From the NCBI GenBank assembly GCA_036003045.1, contig DASYSS010000028.1:1-64000 (forward strand): 64,000 bases of DNA, written 5' to 3'. Position numbers and translations under genes: made by a program. Source of the DNA: Gemmatimonadaceae bacterium (lineage in GTDB: Bacteria > Gemmatimonadota > Gemmatimonadetes > Gemmatimonadales > Gemmatimonadaceae). The notes below the pieces were generated by a model. That model saw nothing but the letters and a program-made list of their open reading frames with translations, had not been told where the DNA came from and searched no databases. Shown piece after piece: positions 3,673-21,062 of this stretch (position 1 is its first letter; the number at the start of each line of letters is the position of its first letter).

Positions 3673-3725
3673 GCGCCAAATTTGCGGGCCCCCGGGCCGG
3701 CGGAAAAGGCTCGTGAGGGCGGGCT

Positions 3726-3813
3726 GGTGGACAGGTGGACAGGAGGACCGGTGGACCGGTGGACGGGGAACTGCCTGAGAGGCGCGGCTGTTCCCGTCCA
3801 CCCGTCCACCCGT
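3726..3813. repeat. GTGGAC array with inverted right arm, copy b
   Basis: The left arm (3726-3771) has five units of the GTGGACNGG type ending in GGACGGGGAAC. The right arm (3790-3813) reads GTTCCCGTCCACCCG and onward, nearly the reverse complement of the left. The ~18-nt core can be looped out, so the element could form a ~20-bp stem. It lies between divergent genes starting at 3672 (minus) and 3889 (plus). Confidence 0.8.
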
Positions 3814-3888
3814 TTATACGTCCCTCGTCCTCTCACTGGCCCGGGTGATGAATACCTACGATTTCCAGGAGTTCTAGAAGGAACCTTG

Positions 3889-7224: not shown

Positions 7225-7363
7225 GCGGGGAATATGGGGACCGCGTGTCCTAGGGTGAAGCGCGTCGTGGGGATAGGCCGCGGTACCGCCGTTGTAAGAA
7301 TCGTGTCCGGGTTCGAGCCGACTCACAACTCTGACGAATCGTCCCGCGTCTAAGCCGCGTAGT

Positions 7364-7444
7364 GGTGGACAGGTGGACCGGTTGACGGATGGACGGCAAC
7401 TGCAGTTAGCGCAGCTCAGGCTGTTGCCCGTCCACCTGTCCACC
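7364..7444. repeat. GTGGAC array with inverted right arm, copy c
   Basis: The left arm (7364-7400) has units GGTGGACAGG, GTGGACCGG, TTGACGGA and TGGACGGCAAC. The right arm (7423-7444) is GTTGCCCGTCCACCTGTCCACC, here described by its halves: GTTGCCCGTCC then ACCTGTCCACC. A 22-nt core links them. The element lies between divergent gcvT and the DUF5916 gene and ends 27 nt before the latter's start codon. Confidence 0.8.
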
Positions 7445-7471
7445 CCCAAACAGGACGACGAGCAGCCCCCC

Positions 7472-10201
7472 ATGCCCAGACTCCTCTCCCTCTGCTTTCT
7501 ATTTGTCCCTGCGATTGTCGCCGCGCAGGGCGTAGTGCGCCAAAGGGCAGCGCCGGCGGATACGCTGGCCTACGGACACAAAGTCGCGGTGCCGAGTGCG
7601 GTGGCCGTGAAGCGCAATGGCGCGATCGTTCTCGACGGACAGCTCGACGAGAACGCGTGGCAGGCGGCGACGCCGATCACGGATTTCAGGCAGATCGATC
7701 CCAACGAAGGCGAGAAGGGATCGCAGCGCACCGAAGTCCGCTTCCTATATGATGACGACGCGCTGTACGTCGGCGCGAAGATGTACGACACCGAGGGTGC
7801 GAAGGGTGTGATGACGCGACTCGTGCGCCGCGACGGGAACTTCGACTCGGACTACCTCGAGCTGGTCATCGACAGCTATCACGACCATTTGAGCCGCGCG
7901 TTCTTCGACCTGAACCCATCCGGGTCGAAGGGCGATCAGATCGGCATCGGCACGTCGTGCTGCGACTCCGGATGGGATCCCGTCTGGGAAGGCGTGACGC
8001 ACATCGACGAAGACGGATGGACGGCCGAGATCCGCATTCCATACAGCCAACTTCGCTTTCCGCGGGCCGAAGTGCAGACGTGGGGACTTCAGGTGCGGCG
8101 TTTCATCAAGCGGAACAACGAACAGGATCAGTGGTCGTGGTGGGGAAAGACCGAAGCGGGCGGCCCGCAGCGCTTCGGACATCTCGAGGGGCTGCACATC
8201 CCCGCGGCCACGGGCCACCTCGAGCTGCTGCCCTATGTCGTGACGAAGTCGTCGGCCGTGGCCGATTCGCCGGGCGATCCGTTCAACACGCATGGCCGTC
8301 CGACGATGCGCGCGGGGCTCGATCTCAAGGATCGCCTCACGTCGAACCTCACGCTGGACGCGACGTTCAATCCTGATTTTGGCCAGGTCGAAGTCGATCC
8401 GGCGGTGCTCAATCTGTCGGCCTTCGAGACCTTCTATCAGGAGAAGCGGCCGTTCTTCATCGAAGGCTCGCAAGTGTTCGACTTCGGCAGCGCGGGCTGC
8501 AACTTCTGCAGCAACATGGAGTCGATGAGCGCGTTCTATTCGCGACGCGTCGGACGCGCGCCGACGGGCTCGTTCCTCGCCACCGACGCGAATCTCTATT
8601 CCGACGTGCCCGATGCGACGACGATCTGGGGCGCGGGCAAGATCACCGGTCGCACGGCGAGCGGATATACGATCGGTCTCCTCGATGCGGTCACCGGCCG
8701 GGCCAATGCGCGCATCGAGACGCCGGGCGGCGTGCGCGGCACGCAAGAGGTCGAGCCGCTCGCGAACTACTTCGTCGGTCGCATCAAGCACGATTACATG
8801 AACGGCAATCTCGTCGTCGGCGCGGTGGCGAGCGGACTTCAGCGCAGCCTCGACACGACGTTTGCTCCGCTCCTCGCGCGCCACGCCGAGATGTACGGCA
8901 ACGACGTCGTGTACACGTGGAAGCAGCAGATGTACTTGCTCCAGGCGTCTGCTGCCGTCACGAACGTGTCCGGCGACGCCCGCGAGATCCTGCTGCGACA
9001 GGAGTCGAGCGCTCGCTATCTCCAGCGGCCGGATCGCGGCGCGGGGTCCAGCGGCTTTCTCTCGAATCGCCTGGATTCGAACGCGACGGCGATGCGCGGC
9101 GCGGGGCTCTATGTGCGCGCCTCGAAGCAAACGGGCGATTGGTTTGGCGAGCTACAGACCAACATGCGCACGCCGGGCTACGAGACGAACGACTACGCGT
9201 TCCAGCAGCGGGCCGACTACATCTGGTTCAACGGCAACATCGGCCGACTCTGGACCAAGCCGACGAACTGGTACCGGCAGATCGTCACGATCGCCGGCGG
9301 GCAGGATCAACGGAACTTCGAGGGCGACCGCACGCAGCAGCAGCTCCACGCCTACTGGTCGGAGACGACGCCGCAGTTCTGGAACGTGACGGTGTTCGGC
9401 ATCCATCGGCCATCCGTCGTCGACGACAAGGCGCTGCGCGGCGGCCCCGCGGTGATCGCGCCACGCAGCGAATACGTCGAGCTGGACGTCTCCAGCGATT
9501 CACGCACGAAGTTGATCGGGAACCTCAGTCTGAGCCGCTACTCTGACGCGCTCGGTGGCTTGAATCCGGGCGTGTCGGTCAGCGCGACGTATCGGCCCGT
9601 GTCGAACGTCAGCATGTCACTTGGCCCGTCGTGGAGTCCGAGCCGCAACCCAACGATGTACGTCGGCGCATTCCCGGACAGCACGGCGAAGGCGTTTTAC
9701 GGGACGCGGTACGTCGTGTCGACGCTCAAGCAACGCACCCTCGGCCTCGACACGCGGCTCAACGTCACGTTCTCGCCAACGATGTCGCTCGAGTTGTACA
9801 TGCAACCGTTCTTCGCGGCGGGGCACTTCTACGATTACAAGGAATACGTCGCGCCGCGCACCGACATCTTGGCGACGTACGGAAAGGACCGCGGCACGAT
9901 CACCGCGACGCGCGACACGACCGGCGCGATCGCATTCTACGGCGTGGATCCCGACGGCGCCGGCCCGGCGTCGGCGATCGTCATTCCGAATCGCGATTTC
10001 AGCGAGCAATCGCTGCGCGGGAACGCGGTGTTCCGCTGGGAGTACCGGCCGGGGTCGGTGCTGTACGTCGCCTGGACGCAGTCGCGGCTCGCCGACTCGA
10101 ACTTCGGCGATTTCGAATTCAGCCGCGACCGATCCGCGCTGTTCGCGGCGCGGCCGGATAACATTTTCCTCGTCAAAGCGTCGTGGTGGCTGCCCCGATG
10201 A
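7472..10201 (+). CDS. DUF5916 outer-membrane protein with N-terminal CBM9-like domain
   Basis: The 909-aa product has a signal peptide (about 1-19, ending IVAAQ). A family-9 carbohydrate-binding-like domain spans roughly 40-230: LDGQLDENAWQ, then RTEVRFLYDDDALYVG, then FDLNPSGSKGD. The rest is typical DUF5916, with FNPDFGQVEVDPAVLNLSAFE and EKRPFFIEG, and ends as a beta-barrel with alternating aromatic residues and a final VKASWWLPR. Such proteins are common in Gemmatimonadota and Bacteroidota and are thought to sit in the outer membrane; the substrate is unknown. The ATG at 7472 was chosen because the signal peptide begins there, immediately downstream of repeat copy c. Confidence 0.9.
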   Translation: MPRLLSLCFLFVPAIVAAQGVVRQRAAPADTLAYGHKVAVPSAVAVKRNGAIVLDGQLDENAWQAATPITDFRQIDPNEGEKGSQRTEVRFLYDDDALYVGAKMYDTEGAKGVMTRLVRRDGNFDSDYLELVIDSYHDHLSRAFFDLNPSGSKGDQIGIGTSCCDSGWDPVWEGVTHIDEDGWTAEIRIPYSQLRFPRAEVQTWGLQVRRFIKRNNEQDQWSWWGKTEAGGPQRFGHLEGLHIPAATGHLELLPYVVTKSSAVADSPGDPFNTHGRPTMRAGLDLKDRLTSNLTLDATFNPDFGQVEVDPAVLNLSAFETFYQEKRPFFIEGSQVFDFGSAGCNFCSNMESMSAFYSRRVGRAPTGSFLATDANLYSDVPDATTIWGAGKITGRTASGYTIGLLDAVTGRANARIETPGGVRGTQEVEPLANYFVGRIKHDYMNGNLVVGAVASGLQRSLDTTFAPLLARHAEMYGNDVVYTWKQQMYLLQASAAVTNVSGDAREILLRQESSARYLQRPDRGAGSSGFLSNRLDSNATAMRGAGLYVRASKQTGDWFGELQTNMRTPGYETNDYAFQQRADYIWFNGNIGRLWTKPTNWYRQIVTIAGGQDQRNFEGDRTQQQLHAYWSETTPQFWNVTVFGIHRPSVVDDKALRGGPAVIAPRSEYVELDVSSDSRTKLIGNLSLSRYSDALGGLNPGVSVSATYRPVSNVSMSLGPSWSPSRNPTMYVGAFPDSTAKAFYGTRYVVSTLKQRTLGLDTRLNVTFSPTMSLELYMQPFFAAGHFYDYKEYVAPRTDILATYGKDRGTITATRDTTGAIAFYGVDPDGAGPASAIVIPNRDFSEQSLRGNAVFRWEYRPGSVLYVAWTQSRLADSNFGDFEFSRDRSALFAARPDNIFLVKASWWLPR

Positions 10202-10240: not shown

Positions 10241-10327
10241 GGGTGGGACTGTCTTCCGCGGACCAGCGCAGTATTGCCGACACTGCCCGGCAATACTGCC
10301 TCGGCTCCGCTCCAGACAGTCCCACCC
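10241..10327. repeat. Nested palindrome element, copy 1
   Basis: The outer stem GGGTGGGACTGTCT (10241-10254) pairs with AGACAGTCCCACCC (10314-10327). The inner stem CAGTATTGCCG (10269-10279) pairs with CGGCAATACTG (10288-10298) around the loop ACACTGCC. It sits between two rightward genes (stop 10201, start 10481). A near-identical copy is at 19797-19893, and where the stems differ the changes are compensatory. I see no gene in 10202-10480. Confidence 0.9.
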
Positions 10328-10480: not shown

Positions 10481-13069
10481 ATGCGATTGCGTTACTTCCT
10501 GGCGGGCGCCGCTTTGGGCTTGGCGTGCTCGAAACCCGCCCCGGCGCCGGCTCCAAGCCCGGCCCCCGCGCAGCCCACAGCTCAGGTTCCGAACGCCGGA
10601 CGCGGCGGTCTGCCGACGAATCCTGGCGGCGATACGACCGGCGGACGTGGCGCGGTGAATCCATTGGCGGCGGCGGCGGCGGCGCCACGACCATACAACC
10701 GCGTGGTCACGCCCGACGCCAAGACGCGAGTCGGGATGTTCAAGGTGCACCGCGTCGGTGACCGGCTGCTGTTCGAGATTCCGGCCAAGGAGCTCGACAA
10801 GGATCAGCTGATGGTCGGACGGCTCGCGCGCGCACCGGCGGGGAATCAGACACCTGGTCCCGGCAATCCGGGATTCGGCGACTACGCGGGCGACGAGTTC
10901 GCGTCGCGCACGCTGCGTTGGGACCGAGTCGGCAACCGCGTAATCCTGCGTTCGCCGTCGTACGCGATCAGCGCGGATACGGGCAACGCGGTGTATCGAT
11001 CGGTGCAGAACTCCAACTATGCGCCGATCATCGCGACGTTCCCCGTCGATGCGTACGGGCCGGACAGCGCGCCGGTGATCGACGTGACGCGTCTGTTCAC
11101 CACGAACGTGCCTGAGTTTGCGGCGATTCGCAGCAATCTGCCGACCGCGGTGGACCCGACCCGTTCGTTCATCGAGCGCGACATCGCGTTCCCCGACAAC
11201 GTCGAGATCGAAGCGACGCAGACCGGCACACCAGGCGCCAATGGCCCCACCCTGCCGGGCCTGCCCACGGCGGCTCGGCCGGCGCAGAGCGTCATCGCGC
11301 ACTGGAGCATCGTGCGTCTGCCCGAGCATCCGATGAAGCCGCGCTACGCGGACGAGCGAACCGGATTCTTCACGGTCGGCACGGTGGACTTCAGCACGTC
11401 GGAACAGGTTGCGAAGCGGAAGCGCTACGTCACGCGGTGGCGCCTCGAGTGCTCCGACCGAAGGGAAGAAAACCTCTGCTATCCGAAGCAGCCGATCGTC
11501 TACTACGTCGATCCGGATACGCCGGATCAGTGGAAGCCCTGGATCCGCAAGGCGATTCTCGATTGGCAGCCGGCATTCGAGGCAGCGGGGTTCAAGGATG
11601 GCATCATCCCGGGTGAAGTGCCGAAGAACGATCCGGATTGGTCGCCGGAAGACATCCGGCACACGATGGTGCGCTGGCTGCCCTCCACCGTCGAGAACTC
11701 GGTCGGCCCGAGCATCCAGGATCCGCGCACGGGCGAGACGCTGAACGGCTCGTCGATGATCTTCCACAACCTCATCGAGCTGATGGAGTTCTGGTATTTC
11801 ACCCAGGCATCGCAGCTCGACGCGCGCGCGCGCACGATTCCCTTCCCCGACTCGCTCATGGGCAAGCTGATCGAGTTCGGCGTCGCCCACGAGATCGGCC
11901 ACACGCTTGGACTCCAGCACGACCAGATCGGCAGCTCGACGTACCCGGCGGACTCGCTGCGCAGCCCGTCGTGGACGCACCGCATGGGCCACAGCCCGAG
12001 CATCATGGACTACTCGCGCATGAACTACGTCGCCCAGCCCGAAGACAAGGTCGCGCTCGACGACATCCTGCCGCGCGTTGGTCCGTGGGACAAGTACTCG
12101 ATCATGTGGGGCTATAAGGAAATTCCAAACGCGAAGAATCCCGACGCCGAGCGAGCGACACTCGAGAAGTGGTCGGACATGCAGGACTCGATTCCGTGGT
12201 ATCGCTTCTCGGCCGGGAACTCGTTCGGCGGCTACGGCACGATGAGCGAAGCCGTCGGCGACGGTGACCCCGTCAAGTCCACGGGCCTCGGTTTCAAGAA
12301 CATCGCGCGGGTCATGGGCTACGTCGCGGCGGCCGGGACTCGGCCCGGCGACGACAATACGCTGTTGCAGAATCTCTATGATCGCACGGTCGGCCAGTGG
12401 GCGACGGAAGCCGTGCACCCGGCGACGATGATCGGCGCCGGAACGGTCGTCTACAAGTCGGGAAGCCAGAAGGGGAACGTGTTCACCGCGATCTCCAAAG
12501 CCCGTCAGAAGGGCGCGATGCACTTCCTGAACGACAGCGTCTTCACGACGCCGACGTATCTCATCCATCCGGAGATCGCGGCCCGCATCGAGCCGGGCGC
12601 GATGCTGACGCGCATCGGCAACGCGCAAACCCGCGTGCTCTCGCAAGTGCTCGTGGACCAGCGGCTCAACTTCCTGCTCGAGGGCGCGGCGACGGCCAAG
12701 AATCCAGGCGACGTTTACACGCTCGCCGAGATGCTGGACGATCTCCAGAACGGGATCTGGTCCGAGCTGTCGGCGCCGTCGCCGAAGATCGATCCATACC
12801 GGCGCACGCTCCAGAACAGCTACCTCACGCAGATGAACAACAAGCTGAATCCGCCGGCCGCGCAGTTGGCGCAGATCCAGCAGCTCGCGGCGCTCGGGAT
12901 CACGATCGCGCCGCTGGCGGAAGACGCGCGATCGGAGATTCGGGGTGAGATAGTCGCGCTGCGGGAGAAGGTGCGTGCGGCGCAGGGGAGAACGACGGAT
13001 CGGGAGACGAGGCTGCATCTGGCGGGCGTGGATCATCGGATTGGGGAGATACTCGATCCGAAGCGGTAG
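10481..13069 (+). CDS. Zinc-dependent metalloprotease lipoprotein (DUF5117/DUF4953 type)
   Basis: The 862-aa product starts with a lipoprotein signal (lipobox LGLAC, Cys16) and a Pro/Ala-rich tether, so it should be membrane-anchored and face the periplasm or outside. The zinc-binding motif [11 protein letters not shown] (residues 470-480) has the metzincin-like HExxHxxGxxH spacing, and SIMDYS ~40 residues later fits a Met-turn. Upstream strands with [21 protein letters not shown] match the DUF5117 N-terminal region. The whole length is typical of the Bacteroidota/Gemmatimonadota family. ATG 10481 directly precedes the signal peptide. The protein substrate is unknown. Confidence 0.92.
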
Positions 13070-13075
13070 GCCTTG

Positions 13076-13162
13076 TGAGGGCGCTGACTTCCTAGGAGCG
13101 CTGACTTCCTTAAGGCGCTGACTTCCTGGGAGCGCCAACGCCCTAGGAGCGCGGACTTCCTG
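13076..13162. repeat. Tandem GCGCTGACTTCCT word array
   Basis: About four irregular copies of GGCGCTGACTTCCTAGGA or AGCGCTGACTTCCT, with a period near 20 bp, lie directly behind the metalloprotease stop. One unit reads GCGCCAACGCCCT and another GCGCGGACTTCCT, so the copies are diverging. The words repeat the arm of the hairpin that follows at 13163. Confidence 0.75.
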
Positions 13163-13189
13163 ACGGCGCTGACTTCGTGTCAGCGCCGT
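13163..13189. terminator. Hairpin derived from the word array
   Basis: A perfect 11-bp stem, ACGGCGCTGAC (13163-13173) / GTCAGCGCCGT (13179-13189), has a TTCGT loop and is followed by TTCGCG. It could terminate the metalloprotease transcript, although the U run is short. The arm shares GGCGCTGACTTC with the tandem units upstream, suggesting that the array grew from one half of a terminator. Confidence 0.5.
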
Positions 13190-13243
13190 TTCGCGTCACG
13201 GTCTCCGACGTGATCGGAAGCGGCTGTCGATCGTTGTTGATCG

Positions 13244-14674: not shown

Positions 14675-15199
14675 TTGAACTTTGACCTACCGATGGGCGT
14701 CAGCGTGCTCGAGCGGACGCCGAGTACGTTGCGCTCGATGCTCGCCGGGTTGTCGCCCGGGTGGACCAACGCGAACGAGGGCCCCGATACATGGAGTCCG
14801 TACGTCATCGTCGGGCACCTCATCCATGGCGAACGAGCCGACTGGATTCCGCGCGCGACGATCATTCTCGCGCAGGGTCCGCAACGCCGCTTCACTCCCT
14901 TCGATCGGGAGGCGCAGTTCCGCGAGAGCGAAGGCAAATCGTTGGCCGAACTGCTCGACGAGTTCGAAGCGCTCCGTGCCGACAGCCTGCGAACGCTTGC
15001 CGACTGGAAGCTCACGGAGAAGCACCTTTCGCTCGAGGCCGAGCATCCGGCGTTCGGACTCGTCACGCTTCAACAACTGCTCTCCACCTGGGTCGTTCAC
15101 GACCTGGGACACATCGCTCAGATCGCGCGCGTGATGGCGAAACAGTACCGAAGTGCGATCGGGCCGTGGCGGGCGTATCTTCCCGTCGTCGACAGGTAG
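14675..15199 (+). CDS. DinB-family protein
   Basis: The product (174 aa) is a DinB-like four-helix-bundle protein, a family of putative metal-dependent thiol-handling or transferase enzymes. The family's histidine pattern is present: WSPYVIVGHLIHGE and, near the end, WVVHDLGHIAQIARVMAKQY. The start is taken as TTG 14675 because AGGGAGA lies 5 nt upstream and the family length then fits; ATG 14693 would be shorter and a start further upstream would translate the repeat. The substrate is unknown. Confidence 0.85.
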   Translation: MNFDLPMGVSVLERTPSTLRSMLAGLSPGWTNANEGPDTWSPYVIVGHLIHGERADWIPRATIILAQGPQRRFTPFDREAQFRESEGKSLAELLDEFEALRADSLRTLADWKLTEKHLSLEAEHPAFGLVTLQQLLSTWVVHDLGHIAQIARVMAKQYRSAIGPWRAYLPVVDR

Positions 15200-15333
15200 G
15201 TGGACGGGTGGACGGGTAAACGGGTAGACGGGTGGACAGCGAAACGCTTATCAGCGGCGCCGTCGATCAGTTGGCCGCCCACTCGCCAAGCGTTCCGGCC
15301 GCAAGCTCTTGTCCACTTGTCCACCCGTCCACC
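15195..15333. repeat. GTGGAC array with inverted right arm, copy e
   Basis: The left arm (15195-15238) has five units: GGTGGACGG, GTGGACGG, GTAAACGG, GTAGACGG and GTGGACAG. The right arm (about 15310-15333) is GTCCACTTGTCCACCCGTCC followed by ACC. The 70-nt interior is not repeated. The right arm ends 9 nt before the amidohydrolase ATG and abuts its CGGAG Shine-Dalgarno, so a folded transcript could hide the start. The left arm starts inside the last codons of dinB. Confidence 0.8.
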
Positions 15334-15342
15334 GGAGATCCG

Positions 15343-17073
15343 ATGACCCAACATCAGAGCCGCAGGGAATTCATGGGGCTGGCGGCGGCGAGCGCCGCGG
15401 GCATTCTCACGCGGCCCACGTTCAGCGACGGGCATCCGTTTACTGCGTCGCCGTTCTCCACGGCGGCCGATCCCGACCTGATCGTCGTGAACGCGAAGGT
15501 CTACACGATGGATGCGGCGATGCCTCGAGCGGAGGCGTTCGCGGTGAGCGGCGGGCGGATCATCGCCGTCGGCAACAGCGCCGACGTGCGCGGACTCGCG
15601 CGCAAGGGCAGCCAGACGTACGACGCCAAGGGCATGACGATCGTGCCCGGCTTCACCGACTGCCACAACCACGCAGGCGGAACGACGCTCCTCTACGAGG
15701 TGCTCGTCGGGAATCCGTTCGAGGTAGAGTTCGTCACGATCGACAGCATCGTGCAGAAGCTACGCGCGAAAGCGCAGGAGACGCCGCCGGGCACGTGGGT
15801 CGAGGGATACTTCTTCGACGACACGAAGGTGAAGGACAAGCGGCAGCTCGTCGCGAGCGATCTCGACAAAGTGTCGACCGAACATCCCGTGGTGGTGCAC
15901 CACCGCGGCGGGCATACGTCGTTCTACAACACCAAGGCGCTCCAGCTGGCCAAGATCGACAAGAGCACGCCGAACCCTCCGGGCGGAACGTACGACCGCG
16001 ACGAGAGCGGGGAGTTGAACGGACGTGTCACCGACCGCGCGCGCGGCGCGTTCAACGGCGTCGGCAACCGGACGCGATATACGCCTGAGCAACAAGCGCA
16101 GCGCGAACGCGACGGCATCGCGCACATCTCGAAGCAGTTCGTACGCTACGGGCTGACGAGCGTGCACCACGAAGGCGGGGATCTTTCGGCGATTCAGGAG
16201 GTGCGCGCTCGCGGACAACTGCTGCATCGTGTGAGCTACGAGGCGAGCGGCCGCGTGCTCGATTCGATGATCAACGGCGGCATCATGACCGGCTTCGGCG
16301 ACGAGTGGGTCAAGTTCGGCGCGACGTCGGAGCACACGGTGGACGGGTCGTTCTCCGAGCGCACGATGGCGTTGAGCATTCCCTACCCCGGCTTGCAGTC
16401 CGGCTATCGCGGCAACATCACGGAGAAGCAGGACGATCTCAACGCGTGGATCGAGCGCGTGCACCGAGCGGGCATCCAGGTGAATTGTCACGCCAACGGC
16501 GACGTGGCGATCGACATGTTCCTCACGGCGGTCGAGCGCGCGCAGAAGGCGTTCCCGCGCGCGGACGCGCGGCCGAAGATCACGCACTGCACGCTCATCA
16601 ACGACGACCTCGTGCGCCGCATCAAGGCGCTCGGTGCCGTACCGGCGATGTTCACGACGTACGCGTACTACAACTCCGACAAGTTCGTGTTCTACGGCGA
16701 AGACTTGATGAAGCGGAGCATGGCGTATCGGACGTTCATCGACGCGGGCGTCTGGGCCGCGGCCGGATCCGACTTCTCACCCGGACCGTTCGCGCCGCTG
16801 ATGGGAATTCAGGGGATGGTGACGCGCACCGGTTGGGACGGAAAGACGTGGGGCGCGAATCAACGCATCACGGTCGACGAGGCGCTCCGCGTCAACACGA
16901 TCAACGGCGCGTACAACTCGCACGAAGAAGCCACGAAAGGCTCGATCACAGCCGGAAAGCTGGCGGATTTCGTGGTGCTGGCCGACGATCCGCACGCAGT
17001 GAGTCCGGAGAAGATCAAGGACATTCAGATCGTGAGGACGGTGGTCGGGGGAGCGACGGCGTATCAGGGGTAG
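15343..17073 (+). CDS. Exported amidohydrolase family 3 protein (YtcJ-like)
   Basis: The product (576 aa) is a metal-dependent hydrolase of the amidohydrolase superfamily. A Tat-like leader (SRREFMGLAAASAAG, residues ~6-20) suggests export of a folded, metal-loaded enzyme. The N-terminal metal site appears as GFTDCHNHAGG, the family block THC occurs at KITHCTLIND, and GSDFSPGPFAPLMGIQ carries the late Asp ligand; GKLADFVVLADDP is the usual C-terminal block. ATG 15343 follows a CGGAG Shine-Dalgarno. The substrate (an amide, formamide or ring) cannot be read from the sequence. Confidence 0.9.
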   Translation: MTQHQSRREFMGLAAASAAGILTRPTFSDGHPFTASPFSTAADPDLIVVNAKVYTMDAAMPRAEAFAVSGGRIIAVGNSADVRGLARKGSQTYDAKGMTIVPGFTDCHNHAGGTTLLYEVLVGNPFEVEFVTIDSIVQKLRAKAQETPPGTWVEGYFFDDTKVKDKRQLVASDLDKVSTEHPVVVHHRGGHTSFYNTKALQLAKIDKSTPNPPGGTYDRDESGELNGRVTDRARGAFNGVGNRTRYTPEQQAQRERDGIAHISKQFVRYGLTSVHHEGGDLSAIQEVRARGQLLHRVSYEASGRVLDSMINGGIMTGFGDEWVKFGATSEHTVDGSFSERTMALSIPYPGLQSGYRGNITEKQDDLNAWIERVHRAGIQVNCHANGDVAIDMFLTAVERAQKAFPRADARPKITHCTLINDDLVRRIKALGAVPAMFTTYAYYNSDKFVFYGEDLMKRSMAYRTFIDAGVWAAAGSDFSPGPFAPLMGIQGMVTRTGWDGKTWGANQRITVDEALRVNTINGAYNSHEEATKGSITAGKLADFVVLADDPHAVSPEKIKDIQIVRTVVGGATAYQG

Positions 17074-17075
17074 GC

Positions 17076-17132
17076 GGTGGACGGGTGGACGCGTGGACGG
17101 GTGGACGCGTGGACGGGTGGACGGGTGGACGG
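17076..17132. repeat. Near-perfect GTGGACGSG tandem array, copy f
   Basis: Six consecutive 9-bp units alternate GTGGACGGG and GTGGACGCG. It begins 3 nt after the amidohydrolase stop and ends 28 nt before the next start. It is the most regular copy in the window and has no right arm, so it may be the youngest or a recently expanded one. Confidence 0.9.
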
Positions 17133-17159
17133 AACGTCAAAAGGAGCGAGGGACTCATC

Positions 17160-18749: not shown

Positions 18750-19700
18750 CTATTTCATCCCCGCCTGCTGTTTGACGTAGTTCGCCGCCGCGTCGTGCGT
18801 CGCGAACCAGGCGCCGCCTTTGGCGTTGATGTGCTGAATCAGCATCTCCAACGCCACGACGCGTGAGCGGTGCCCCGAAATGTGCGGATGGTTGGTGAGG
18901 ATGAACATCGAGCCCTCCTCCAACGCCTTGTCGTACTCGTCCATCCAGACTTGCGCGACCTCCCGAGGCGACGCGTAGGCGTTCCCCTGCGGATTGTAGA
19001 GCGGCGCGTCGTCCATGATCCACTCGACCGGCAGCTCGACGATGCCCGTCGGCTTGCCTTTCTCGAGCAGCTCGTACGGGCTCTCGTCGGACATCATCGA
19101 GCTCTCGTACTTGAACCCCATCTCGCGCAGAATGCGCAGCGTGTTCGGCGAGAAGTTCCAGCTCGGCGCGCGATATCCGGTCGGCTTCTGGCCAAGTGTC
19201 TTGGTCCAGTAGTCGACGGCTCGCTGAAGGAGGTTCTTTTCCGTCGCGTATGGAAGCTGCGAGTTCATCTCGTGGATCCAGCCGTGCACCGCGATCTCGT
19301 TGCGCCCGGATTTGCGGATGAGATCGACCATCTCTGGATGGATCCGCGCGCTCATCGCCGGAATGAAGTACGTCACAGGGATCTTGTATTTGTCGAAGAG
19401 CGCGACGACGCGCGGCAATCCCGCGCGCGCGCCGTATTCGTTCTGCGACAGACCGCCGATCGTCGGCTCCCCGAAGCGTATCGAGACGGTCTCGTTGTCT
19501 ACGTCGAACGAGAAGAGCACCGCGACCTTCGCCCCGTTTGGCCATGCTTTCGGCTTGAGACTCTTGCCGGCGCGGACGGCGTTCACGACGGCGAAAACGG
19601 AGTCGTCGGACCACTCCCAACCCGGCTTCACGCCGGGGCGGACTTGGGCGGCGAGGTTGGCGGCGATGAGCGGCGCGGCAAGCAGGGCGAGGCGGCGCAT
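18750..19700 (-). CDS. Exported polysaccharide deacetylase (NodB fold)
   Basis: The product (316 aa) has a signal peptide (1-18, ending NLAAQ). The NodB homology domain shows VLFSFDVDNET (motif 1 with the catalytic/metal Asp pair), AVHGWIHEMN (motif 2, HxxxH spacing), YRAPSWNFSPNTL (motif 3) and a late TNHPHISGHRSR block typical of the HpPgdA/puuE-like subgroup. It should remove acetyl groups from a glycan, or hydrolyse a related amide, in the periplasm. ATG 19700 is chosen for the signal peptide. The palindrome copy 2 lies upstream. Confidence 0.88.
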   Translation of the reverse strand: MRRLALLAAPLIAANLAAQVRPGVKPGWEWSDDSVFAVVNAVRAGKSLKPKAWPNGAKVAVLFSFDVDNETVSIRFGEPTIGGLSQNEYGARAGLPRVVALFDKYKIPVTYFIPAMSARIHPEMVDLIRKSGRNEIAVHGWIHEMNSQLPYATEKNLLQRAVDYWTKTLGQKPTGYRAPSWNFSPNTLRILREMGFKYESSMMSDESPYELLEKGKPTGIVELPVEWIMDDAPLYNPQGNAYASPREVAQVWMDEYDKALEEGSMFILTNHPHISGHRSRVVALEMLIQHINAKGGAWFATHDAAANYVKQQAGMK

Positions 19701-19796: not shown

Positions 19797-19893
19797 GCGA
19801 GGGGCGGGACTGTCTTCCGCGGACCAGTGAAGTATTGCCGACACTGCCCGGCAATACTTCCTCGGCTCCGCTCCAGACAGTCCCGCCCCTCGC
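19797..19893. repeat. Nested palindrome element, copy 2
   Basis: The outer stem is a perfect 19 bp: GCGAGGGGCGGGACTGTCT (19797-19815) pairs with AGACAGTCCCGCCCCTCGC (19875-19893). The inner stem AAGTATTGCCG / CGGCAATACTT flanks the same ACACTGCC loop. Compared with copy 1, C:G became A:T in the inner stem and T:A became C:G in the outer stem, so pairing is kept. It lies between two leftward genes (start 19700, stop 20031). The remaining 19701-20030 holds no gene I can see. Confidence 0.9.
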
Positions 19894-20030
19894 CCTCCGC
19901 CGACCGCACACGTTCGCTGTGTCGCGCTCTTCCTGACGCTACCGCCTGTCGCTGACGACTAGAGGGATCGTCCCGCGCAGCGATCGCGTCGAGGCGCTGT
20001 GACCCGGACACGCGCGAAGCCGGCCGGTCG

Positions 20031-21062
20031 TCAGCGGACGTGAACCGGGAAGCGCGCGAGGAGCGTTCCGTTCGCCGATTTGACGACGAACGAAAAGTCT
20101 CCCGGCGCCGGAGGGGTCAGGGCGAAATCGTATGTCGCGCCGTTCTCGAGCTGCTGAAACGCCGGGCGTGGGCTCGCCGAATCGGGCGGCAGAGCGGTTG
20201 CGTTCTTCGCGATCGCGCGCCAGACGGCCACGGTCGAATCTCCGGGCATCCCGTCGCCCCGATTCGCGCTGTAGAACACTCCACCGAGCGAAATCGGGTG
20301 AGACGCGAGGGTCAGGTTCACGAATCGCATGCGAACGGTGTCGCCGACCGCGAACGACAGTCGCTCGGTGTACGGCGACGCCTTTCCGTTGATCGTGAAC
20401 CAGAAGACCGACTCGACGTCGGGCACGGCGCTGCCCGCGCCGGACTGTGGCGACGGGTCCCACAAGTTGAACACGAACGCGCGATCGCGCTCGGAACCGA
20501 ACGTGTCCCGTTGGTCGACGATCAACGCGCCGCCGAGCTGGGCGTCGACGGGCGCGCGGGCGAGCGGGTCGGCCGAGGATGTGTCCCGAGCCGATTTCCC
20601 CCAGTAGTAGTACGTCCCAGGCGCTCCGGCAGGAAATGAGATTTCTTGAACGGCGCCGGGGCGAATCTGCACGGTGTCCTCGGCGCGCGGCGTGCCCGCG
20701 CCGCGCGCGCTGAGGCCGTAGACGACCACGCTGTTGAAGAGCGTGTTGCGCACGGACGCGTGCACGATCGCGCCGGCCGGAACGCGAATGAGGGGGCCTG
20801 GCACGCTGAGCGGCTTCCCTTCCTCGGCGAACGCGTTCACGCTGACGCCGGGCCCGCCGCCGTCGTCGCGGGTCGGATGCCACACGCCGCGACGAATCTC
20901 GAGATGAATGTCGACCGTGCGGCCGGTCATCGATCCCGCCGCACGCCGATTGTCGTTGACGACGATCTGCTCCGGGTGAGACTCGCCGGAGACGAGGTAC
21001 TGGCGGATACTGCGCGATGACGACATCGCGAGCATCGCGGCGGCGACTCCAAATGCGAACAT
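20031..21062 (-). CDS. Exported multicopper-oxidase-like cupredoxin protein lacking copper ligands
   Basis: The product (343 aa) has an N-terminal hydrophobic segment and two cupredoxin-like domains arranged as in multicopper oxidases: PGPLIRVPAGAIVHASVRN, then APGTYYYWG, then the second domain with VGDTVRMRFVN. The copper-binding positions are replaced. HxHG is VVVYGLSAR (112-120), the YWYHSH region is GTYYYWGKS (149-157), HPxHLHG is SHPISLGG (254-261), and there is no C-terminal HCH motif. It is probably not an oxidase; a binding or structural role is inferred. ATG 21062 has AGGAAG upstream. Confidence 0.75.
   Translation of the reverse strand: MFAFGVAAAMLAMSSSRSIRQYLVSGESHPEQIVVNDNRRAAGSMTGRTVDIHLEIRRGVWHPTRDDGGGPGVSVNAFAEEGKPLSVPGPLIRVPAGAIVHASVRNTLFNSVVVYGLSARGAGTPRAEDTVQIRPGAVQEISFPAGAPGTYYYWGKSARDTSSADPLARAPVDAQLGGALIVDQRDTFGSERDRAFVFNLWDPSPQSGAGSAVPDVESVFWFTINGKASPYTERLSFAVGDTVRMRFVNLTLASHPISLGGVFYSANRGDGMPGDSTVAVWRAIAKNATALPPDSASPRPAFQQLENGATYDFALTPPAPGDFSFVVKSANGTLLARFPVHVR

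Follow-up and report, generated by a model that had tools for sequence, protein, structure and literature searches.

Two nested hairpins at the locus

The window, by which we mean the whole 64,000-nt stretch of Gemmatimonadaceae DNA analysed here, carries two copies of a palindromic element. Copy 1 (10241..10327, + strand; 106 bits at 10244-10324 with our covariance model R1) is intergenic and has a + strand gene on either side: a DUF5916 gene (7373..10201), whose stop codon lies 39 bp ahead of the element, and a Met-zincin (DUF4953/DUF5117) gene (10481..13069). Copy 2 (19797..19893, + strand; R1 106.4 bits at 19805-19885) is likewise intergenic, between two - strand genes for a polysaccharide deacetylase (18750..19700) and a multicopper-oxidase-like protein (20031..21062). 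The copies are 89% identical across 101 bp, with an offset of 9561 bp, and a 22-mer of the element gave 2 matches against a chance expectation of 0.00 (3 mismatches allowed).

Each element is a nested hairpin, with an outer stem, a 3x3 internal loop, a stem of 5-6 bp, a bulged C and an inner stem with GCA-N4-TGC dyads in its arms. The left arm of the inner stem of copy 1 (10268..10279, +) contains the dyad GCA-GTAT-TGC, a candidate HTH_37 operator, and the right arm is CGGCAATACTGC (10288..10299, +). The corresponding arms of copy 2 are GAAGTATTGCCG (19829..19840, +), the first 11 bases of which recur in the inner stem of the palindromes of a genome from another genus (G211, see below), and 19849..19860 (+). 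Fold z-scores on the + strand were -8.8 for copy 1 and -11.0 for copy 2, with 0 of 200 dinucleotide shuffles as low, and on the - strand they were -8.7 and -11.6 relative to dinucleotide shuffles.

An earlier, sequence-only reading of this DNA had described the two elements as nearly identical and non-coding, each in a gap between co-directional genes, and our analysis bears this out. Its account of the stems also proved accurate: the loop (G)ACACTGCC and the flanking TTCCGCGGACCAG are unchanged between the copies, the inner stem differs by a C:G to A:T change (GCAGTATT/AATACTGC versus GAAGTATT/AATACTTC), and the compensatory T:A to C:G change in the outer stem is real. Copy 2 does have a perfect 19-bp outer stem, yet this is exceptional among copies of its subtype (type A, see below). 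The left outer end of copy 2, GCGAGGGG, is the exact complement of its own right arm; in 7 of 8 further type A copies used for comparison, the left end is CTCGGGG-like and mismatched to the right arm. The left end of copy 2 therefore looks templated by the opposite arm, as in a template-switch footprint, and the copy is probably arm-corrected.

The window also contains other repeats. Tandem 8-bp repeats (GGTGGACG) are present at 3718-3772, 7356-7402, 15191-15261 and 17068-17146, with inverted arrays at 3793-3823 and 15311-15334, and their relatives occur at many other sites in the genome, sometimes with an inverted array nearby. A 17-bp tandem repeat, (A/G)GCGCTGACTTCCTNNG, occupies 13080-13198 and has related arrays at many loci of the genome from which the window comes (G000) and of a congener (G005).

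A hairpin family within one genus

The sequence-only reading would have been undermined had these two copies been the only ones, which they are not. A DNA search turned up further copies in G000 (5.37 Mb, 106 contigs), and model R1 located the hairpin at 18 distinct places there, plus fragments; these places comprise 16 full-size hairpins, one copy with an internal deletion (C100) and one fusion of two halves (C17 35623). The fusion (C17 35623-35699) joins the left half of a hairpin A to the outer half of a hairpin B and resembles a pair whose interior, from one loop to the other, was deleted. Two subtypes can be told apart by their outer stems, namely A (GGGACTGTC/GACAGTCCC), to which both window copies belong, and B (CCCGAGGTC/GACCCCGGG); the core TTCCGCG(C)GACCAG...CTCGGCTC(G)CGCTCC and the inner loop region are common to both.

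The family was found in 5 of the 6 genomes of the genus (G000, G001, G002, G004 and G005), and 4 of the 5 other genomes thus carry a changed sequence with the same nested fold. Copy number within the genus ranges from 0 to 18, counts that are minima; the genomes are contig-level drafts, the majority of which are probably metagenome-assembled. A survey of 288 genomes of the order showed, at the stringency used, no family members outside the genus apart from two weak matches in G024; matches of R1 in G056 turned out to be a different, widespread REP of the GTCATCCCGAGCGGAGCGAGGGATC type. G004 has 7 hairpins, 4 of which are closely trailed by another widespread REP, GTCATCCTGAGCGAAGCGAAGGATC (L105, L106, L107, L108), and three of these have a common right end, GGCCGCGGTACCCT, making them composites of two unrelated palindromes.

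With a rough GC-frame gene caller, 27 of 28 sites fell outside called genes, often 25-60 bp after a stop codon, and the same rough caller placed 12 sites between co-directional, 9 between convergent and 1 between divergent neighbours, with 5 unclassified.

The fold is maintained while the stems change

In an alignment of 12 copies from G000 (A2), 95.6% of the cells pair, both sides have changed in 13 of 33 pairs, and the covariation score is 0.331, compared with 0.135 after shuffling. The scores were higher when hairpins of several species were combined: in alignment A4, 26 of 32 pairs covary (0.543 versus 0.161 shuffled, with no shuffle as high), and alignment A6 gave 0.473 versus 0.143 shuffled, although the A4 and A6 counts lean towards structure because both alignments were fitted to the model and A4 includes both strands of some hairpins. 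In the multi-species alignments, covariation was lost when the partner was shifted by one base. In an alignment of 32 hairpins, stem sequences had been replaced from one species to the next, whereas the TCC/TCC internal loop and a single bulged C were kept. This retention argues for constraint, since simple homogenisation of the arms would erase both asymmetries.

The sequence-only reading had taken the paired changes as proof of selection on a folded molecule. Maintenance of the fold stands, given the covariation and the kept bulged C and TCC/TCC loop. Covariation alone is no proof of selection, however, because template switching during replication can also create compensatory changes (PMC8794818). 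As the asymmetries are kept and copy 2 nonetheless seems template-switched, the covariation observed here probably has two causes, constraint on the fold and template switching.

No match above the gathering score was obtained with Rfam in the window. Counts of G:U versus A:C were 12 versus 24 in the genus and 29 versus 8 in G211; since the direction of this bias is inconsistent, it was rejected as evidence for an RNA.

Facing hairpins enclose an HTH_37 gene

All 8 close pairs of hairpins (within ~500 bp, orientation assigned by the model) are convergent, four of them in G000, two in G002 and two in G005. A complete unit measures ~550-650 bp and consists of a hairpin, a small HTH_37 gene and a second hairpin, the two hairpins facing each other; this pairing around a gene had been missed by the sequence-only reading. 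The longest units, at G000 C90, G002 C9, G005 C6 and G005 C39 (where the left hairpin was detected only by folding), each enclose an HTH_37 gene of 80-92 aa, and a remnant of such a gene is present in G004 C26. No intact HTH_37 gene of the relevant clade was found in G004 despite its hairpins. The enclosed proteins scored 36.8-48.1 bits against HTH_37 (PF13744; Pfam gathering cut-off 27) and are related to the solved HTH structures 2a6c and HigA3 6lty.

The HTH_37 open reading frame fills the ~360-400-bp spacer, and no second recognisable gene lies between the hairpins. A role as one half of a toxin-antitoxin pair was rejected because no toxin gene was recognised in the unit spacer. We also rejected a phage or plasmid origin, as DNA comparison with phage and plasmid records gave no match and the HTH protein was not found in viral contigs. 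No description of an HTH_37-associated palindrome family was found in the open-access papers searched.

In many comparisons between copies, similarity extends past the hairpin on the inner side, into the partner hairpin, the HTH gene or a shared spacer; on the outer side there were only 5 such matches, one of which is orthologous chromosomal DNA. Because the similarity is mostly on the inner side, we take the hairpins to be the ends of the unit. Spacers without the HTH gene are shorter and of several kinds, one being common to C42, C57, C57b and a relic in the window at 19933..19995 (+), near copy 2, and another to two C74 copies. Among short copies the spacers frequently show no relationship to one another, so the members of some pairs may not have travelled together. 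The window relic corresponds to the spacer found after hairpin A in C42 and C57 and, in C57b, ahead of hairpin B; a hairpin B partner is undetectable at the relic, and no partner for copy 1, which is solo, was found in the window. The 60-bp motif GACTAGAGTGATCGTCCCGCGCAGCGATCGCG (window 19933-19995; G000 C57:97035) accompanies some hairpins and also has matches at G000 C33:48713 and C67:8413, where no hairpin was detected.

HTH_37 genes and palindromes in other genomes

Among close HTH_37 relatives (>=50 bits) in the family Gemmatimonadaceae, 11 of 14 have a strong palindrome within 450 bp, compared with 5 of 20 more distant relatives and 4 of 187 control windows; because each HTH_37 gene has two flanks, a fair expectation is ~0.6 of 14. 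The HTH_37 genes at G214 and at G000 C37 are without a strong palindrome, the gene at G001 C169 has a moderate one on one side only, and the palindrome next to the G172 HTH_37 gene exists as one copy. Among distant homologues (Syntrophaceae, Chloroflexi and others), apparent hairpins failed to resolve into nested palindromes and were set aside.

G211, from another genus, provides an independent second system of ~18 dispersed palindromes, two of them beside HTH_37 genes; the palindrome is absent from four congeners. Their outer stem, GGATTGAGGTGTGTCGTAT, is unrelated to the hairpins described above. Their inner stem, ATGGAAGTATTGCCAT, contains GAAGTATTGCC, the same 11 bases as in window copy 2, and within G211 it is nearly invariant while the outer stem and the loop vary. 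A dyad of the GCA-N4-TGC type is present in the inner stem of 32 of 32 hairpins of the window's genus, with a search pattern that admitted GAA and TGAC variants. On these sequence comparisons, the HTH_37 protein likely binds this dyad as its operator. The idea is weakened by G002 and G005-C39, which have the same recognition helix but different dyads (TGCC versus TGAC); co-variation of the helix with the dyad variant was thus not seen in this pair.

Filled and empty sites

The gaps orthologous to that of copy 1 in G001 and G004 have no hairpin. A gap between convergent genes is ~30 bp long in G001, holds a hairpin and a foreign REP in G004, and holds the full hairpin-HTH-hairpin unit in G005. 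As this gap is empty in one species and filled in others, the unit either moves or is lost. By eye, no target-site duplication, the short repeat expected at both ends of a MITE of a DDE transposon, was seen at six composites, and flanks are too diverged between species for a base-exact empty site.

The orthologous gap in G002 contains an array of GTCATCCTGAGCGAAGCGAAGGATC-type repeats. The gap as a whole (L226, L227, L230, L109) is a hot spot of palindrome insertion, with different repeats in three species and none in the fourth.

Transposases, tags and core boxes

A RAYT-type transposase, suggested by the sequence-only reading, did not materialise: Y1_Tnp (PF01797) was not detected in G000, G002, G003, G004 or G005, that is, in 5 of the 6 genomes of the genus, and G002 and G004 are 99-100% complete. 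The sole Y1 protein of the genus, in G001, carries its own GGGGTCAGACCCC terminal repeat, unlike the family hairpins. This 233-aa transposase (G001 C166, L111) adjoins a GGGGTCAGACCCCGG terminal palindrome and forms a TIRYT-like, unrelated unit. Among tags at the base of 32 hairpins, GTAG was found in 1 and CGTC in 5, GTGG not being counted. The integron attC core boxes GTTRRRY / RYYYAAC were found in 0 of 32 hairpins, and attC identity was rejected.

Interpretation

We consider it probable, at roughly 60%, that the window elements are dispersed, mostly decayed ends of a small, non-autonomous, REP/TIRtron-like mobile unit with HTH_37 as its partner. No catalytic protein was found inside any unit, and its mobility would therefore depend on a factor encoded elsewhere. 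In the mechanism that we propose, the HTH_37 protein would bind the inner-stem dyad and control or guide the unit, and a trans-acting enzyme other than a detectable Y1 transposase would move the hairpins, probably folded as single strands. Insertion or survival would be favoured directly behind stop codons, and arm-to-arm template switching would help to keep the stems perfect. More tentatively, and with the odds somewhat against it, this could be a bacterial system of mobile palindromes of a distinct kind: its structure-conserved nested hairpins would co-evolve with an antitoxin-like HTH_37 protein, not with a RAYT, it would have diversified separately in two or more Gemmatimonadaceae genera, and a trans-acting enzyme would move it.

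Several other explanations were weighed against the mobile unit. The elements might be ordinary REP/REPIN or TIRtron repeats whose Y1 (RAYT/TIRYT) transposase was lost afterwards or is not represented in the assemblies, with HTH_37 as a passenger. RAYT units also have a gene between two inverted palindromes (PMC2817692), REPs show a similar placement bias behind genes, RAYT genes can be deleted while REPs persist (PMC3733652), and one Y1 gene is present in G001. We nevertheless find this unlikely, since Y1_Tnp is missing even from the two genomes of 99-100% completeness, the G001 protein has a different terminal palindrome, there is no GTAG/CGTC tag pattern, the hairpins are 80-100 nt and not 20-40, and the HTH association recurs in G211. 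It is rather improbable that the hairpins are dispersed operators through which HTH_37 serves a host role, such as a regulon or chromosome organisation, and are not primarily selfish DNA: the dyad in all hairpins, the nearly invariant G211 inner stem beside a variable outer stem and loop, and the sites directly behind genes would fit, whereas the range of 0 to 18 copies within one genus, the orthologous sites without copies and the G004 hairpins without an intact HTH_37 of the clade do not.

A functional RNA, with the hairpins being transcribed downstream of genes and serving to terminate transcription or protect mRNA, would be in keeping with the strong fold, present on both strands, and with positions often 25-60 bp past stop codons and divergent at 1 of 22 classified sites; we judge it very unlikely, as there is no U-run, no Rfam match and no consistent strand bias of G:U versus A:C. 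Most improbable is covariation without selection, by which template switching during replication would homogenise both arms wherever a palindrome is long. Such switching has been documented (PMC8794818) and the outer end of copy 2 is probably arm-corrected, but the bulged C and TCC/TCC loop kept beside changed stems would have been erased, and the dispersal and the HTH association would be left unexplained.

The mobile-unit reading matters because there is no accepted account of how REP-like repeats spread when, as with CGTC REPs, no transposase is known for them. In the present case the RAYT position is taken by a gene of another kind, which has a candidate binding site, GCA-N4-TGC, conserved between genera; with so concrete a candidate, how such repeats persist becomes testable with a single small protein. 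The hairpins moreover offer a natural setting in which to tell compensatory changes due to selection on a DNA fold from those left by template-switch repair.

Comparison with known systems

Like RAYT/REP systems (REPtrons, REPINs), the unit has a gene bracketed by inverted imperfect palindromes, dispersed solo and paired palindromes, placement behind genes and covarying stems. Unlike them, it encloses an 80-92 aa HTH_37 protein in place of a Y1/HUH transposase, and its palindromes are nested, 80-135 nt long and without a GTAG head, whereas REP palindromes are 20-40 bp. It thus works like a REP system but lacks the defining transposase and the GTAG head. Integron attC sites consist of an outer stem, an internal loop, a second stem with an extrahelical base and a variable inner stem, and their fold is conserved over their sequence. 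The hairpins share this order of stems and loops and this conservation of fold over sequence; they differ in lacking the GTTRRRY/RYYYAAC core and in having two facing hairpins per gene. With HTH_37/HigA-type antitoxins (PF13744; PDB 2a6c, 6lty) the enclosed protein shares its sequence family, but here the unit has no toxin gene. CGTC REPs (PMC3733652) are likewise dispersed palindromes without a dedicated transposase, although they are short, CGTC-tagged and have no known partner gene. Finally, whereas TIRtrons (TIRYT; PMC3733652) enclose a tyrosine transposase and the unit described here only an HTH_37 gene, both have long terminal repeats that are in part self-complementary and are also found dispersed.
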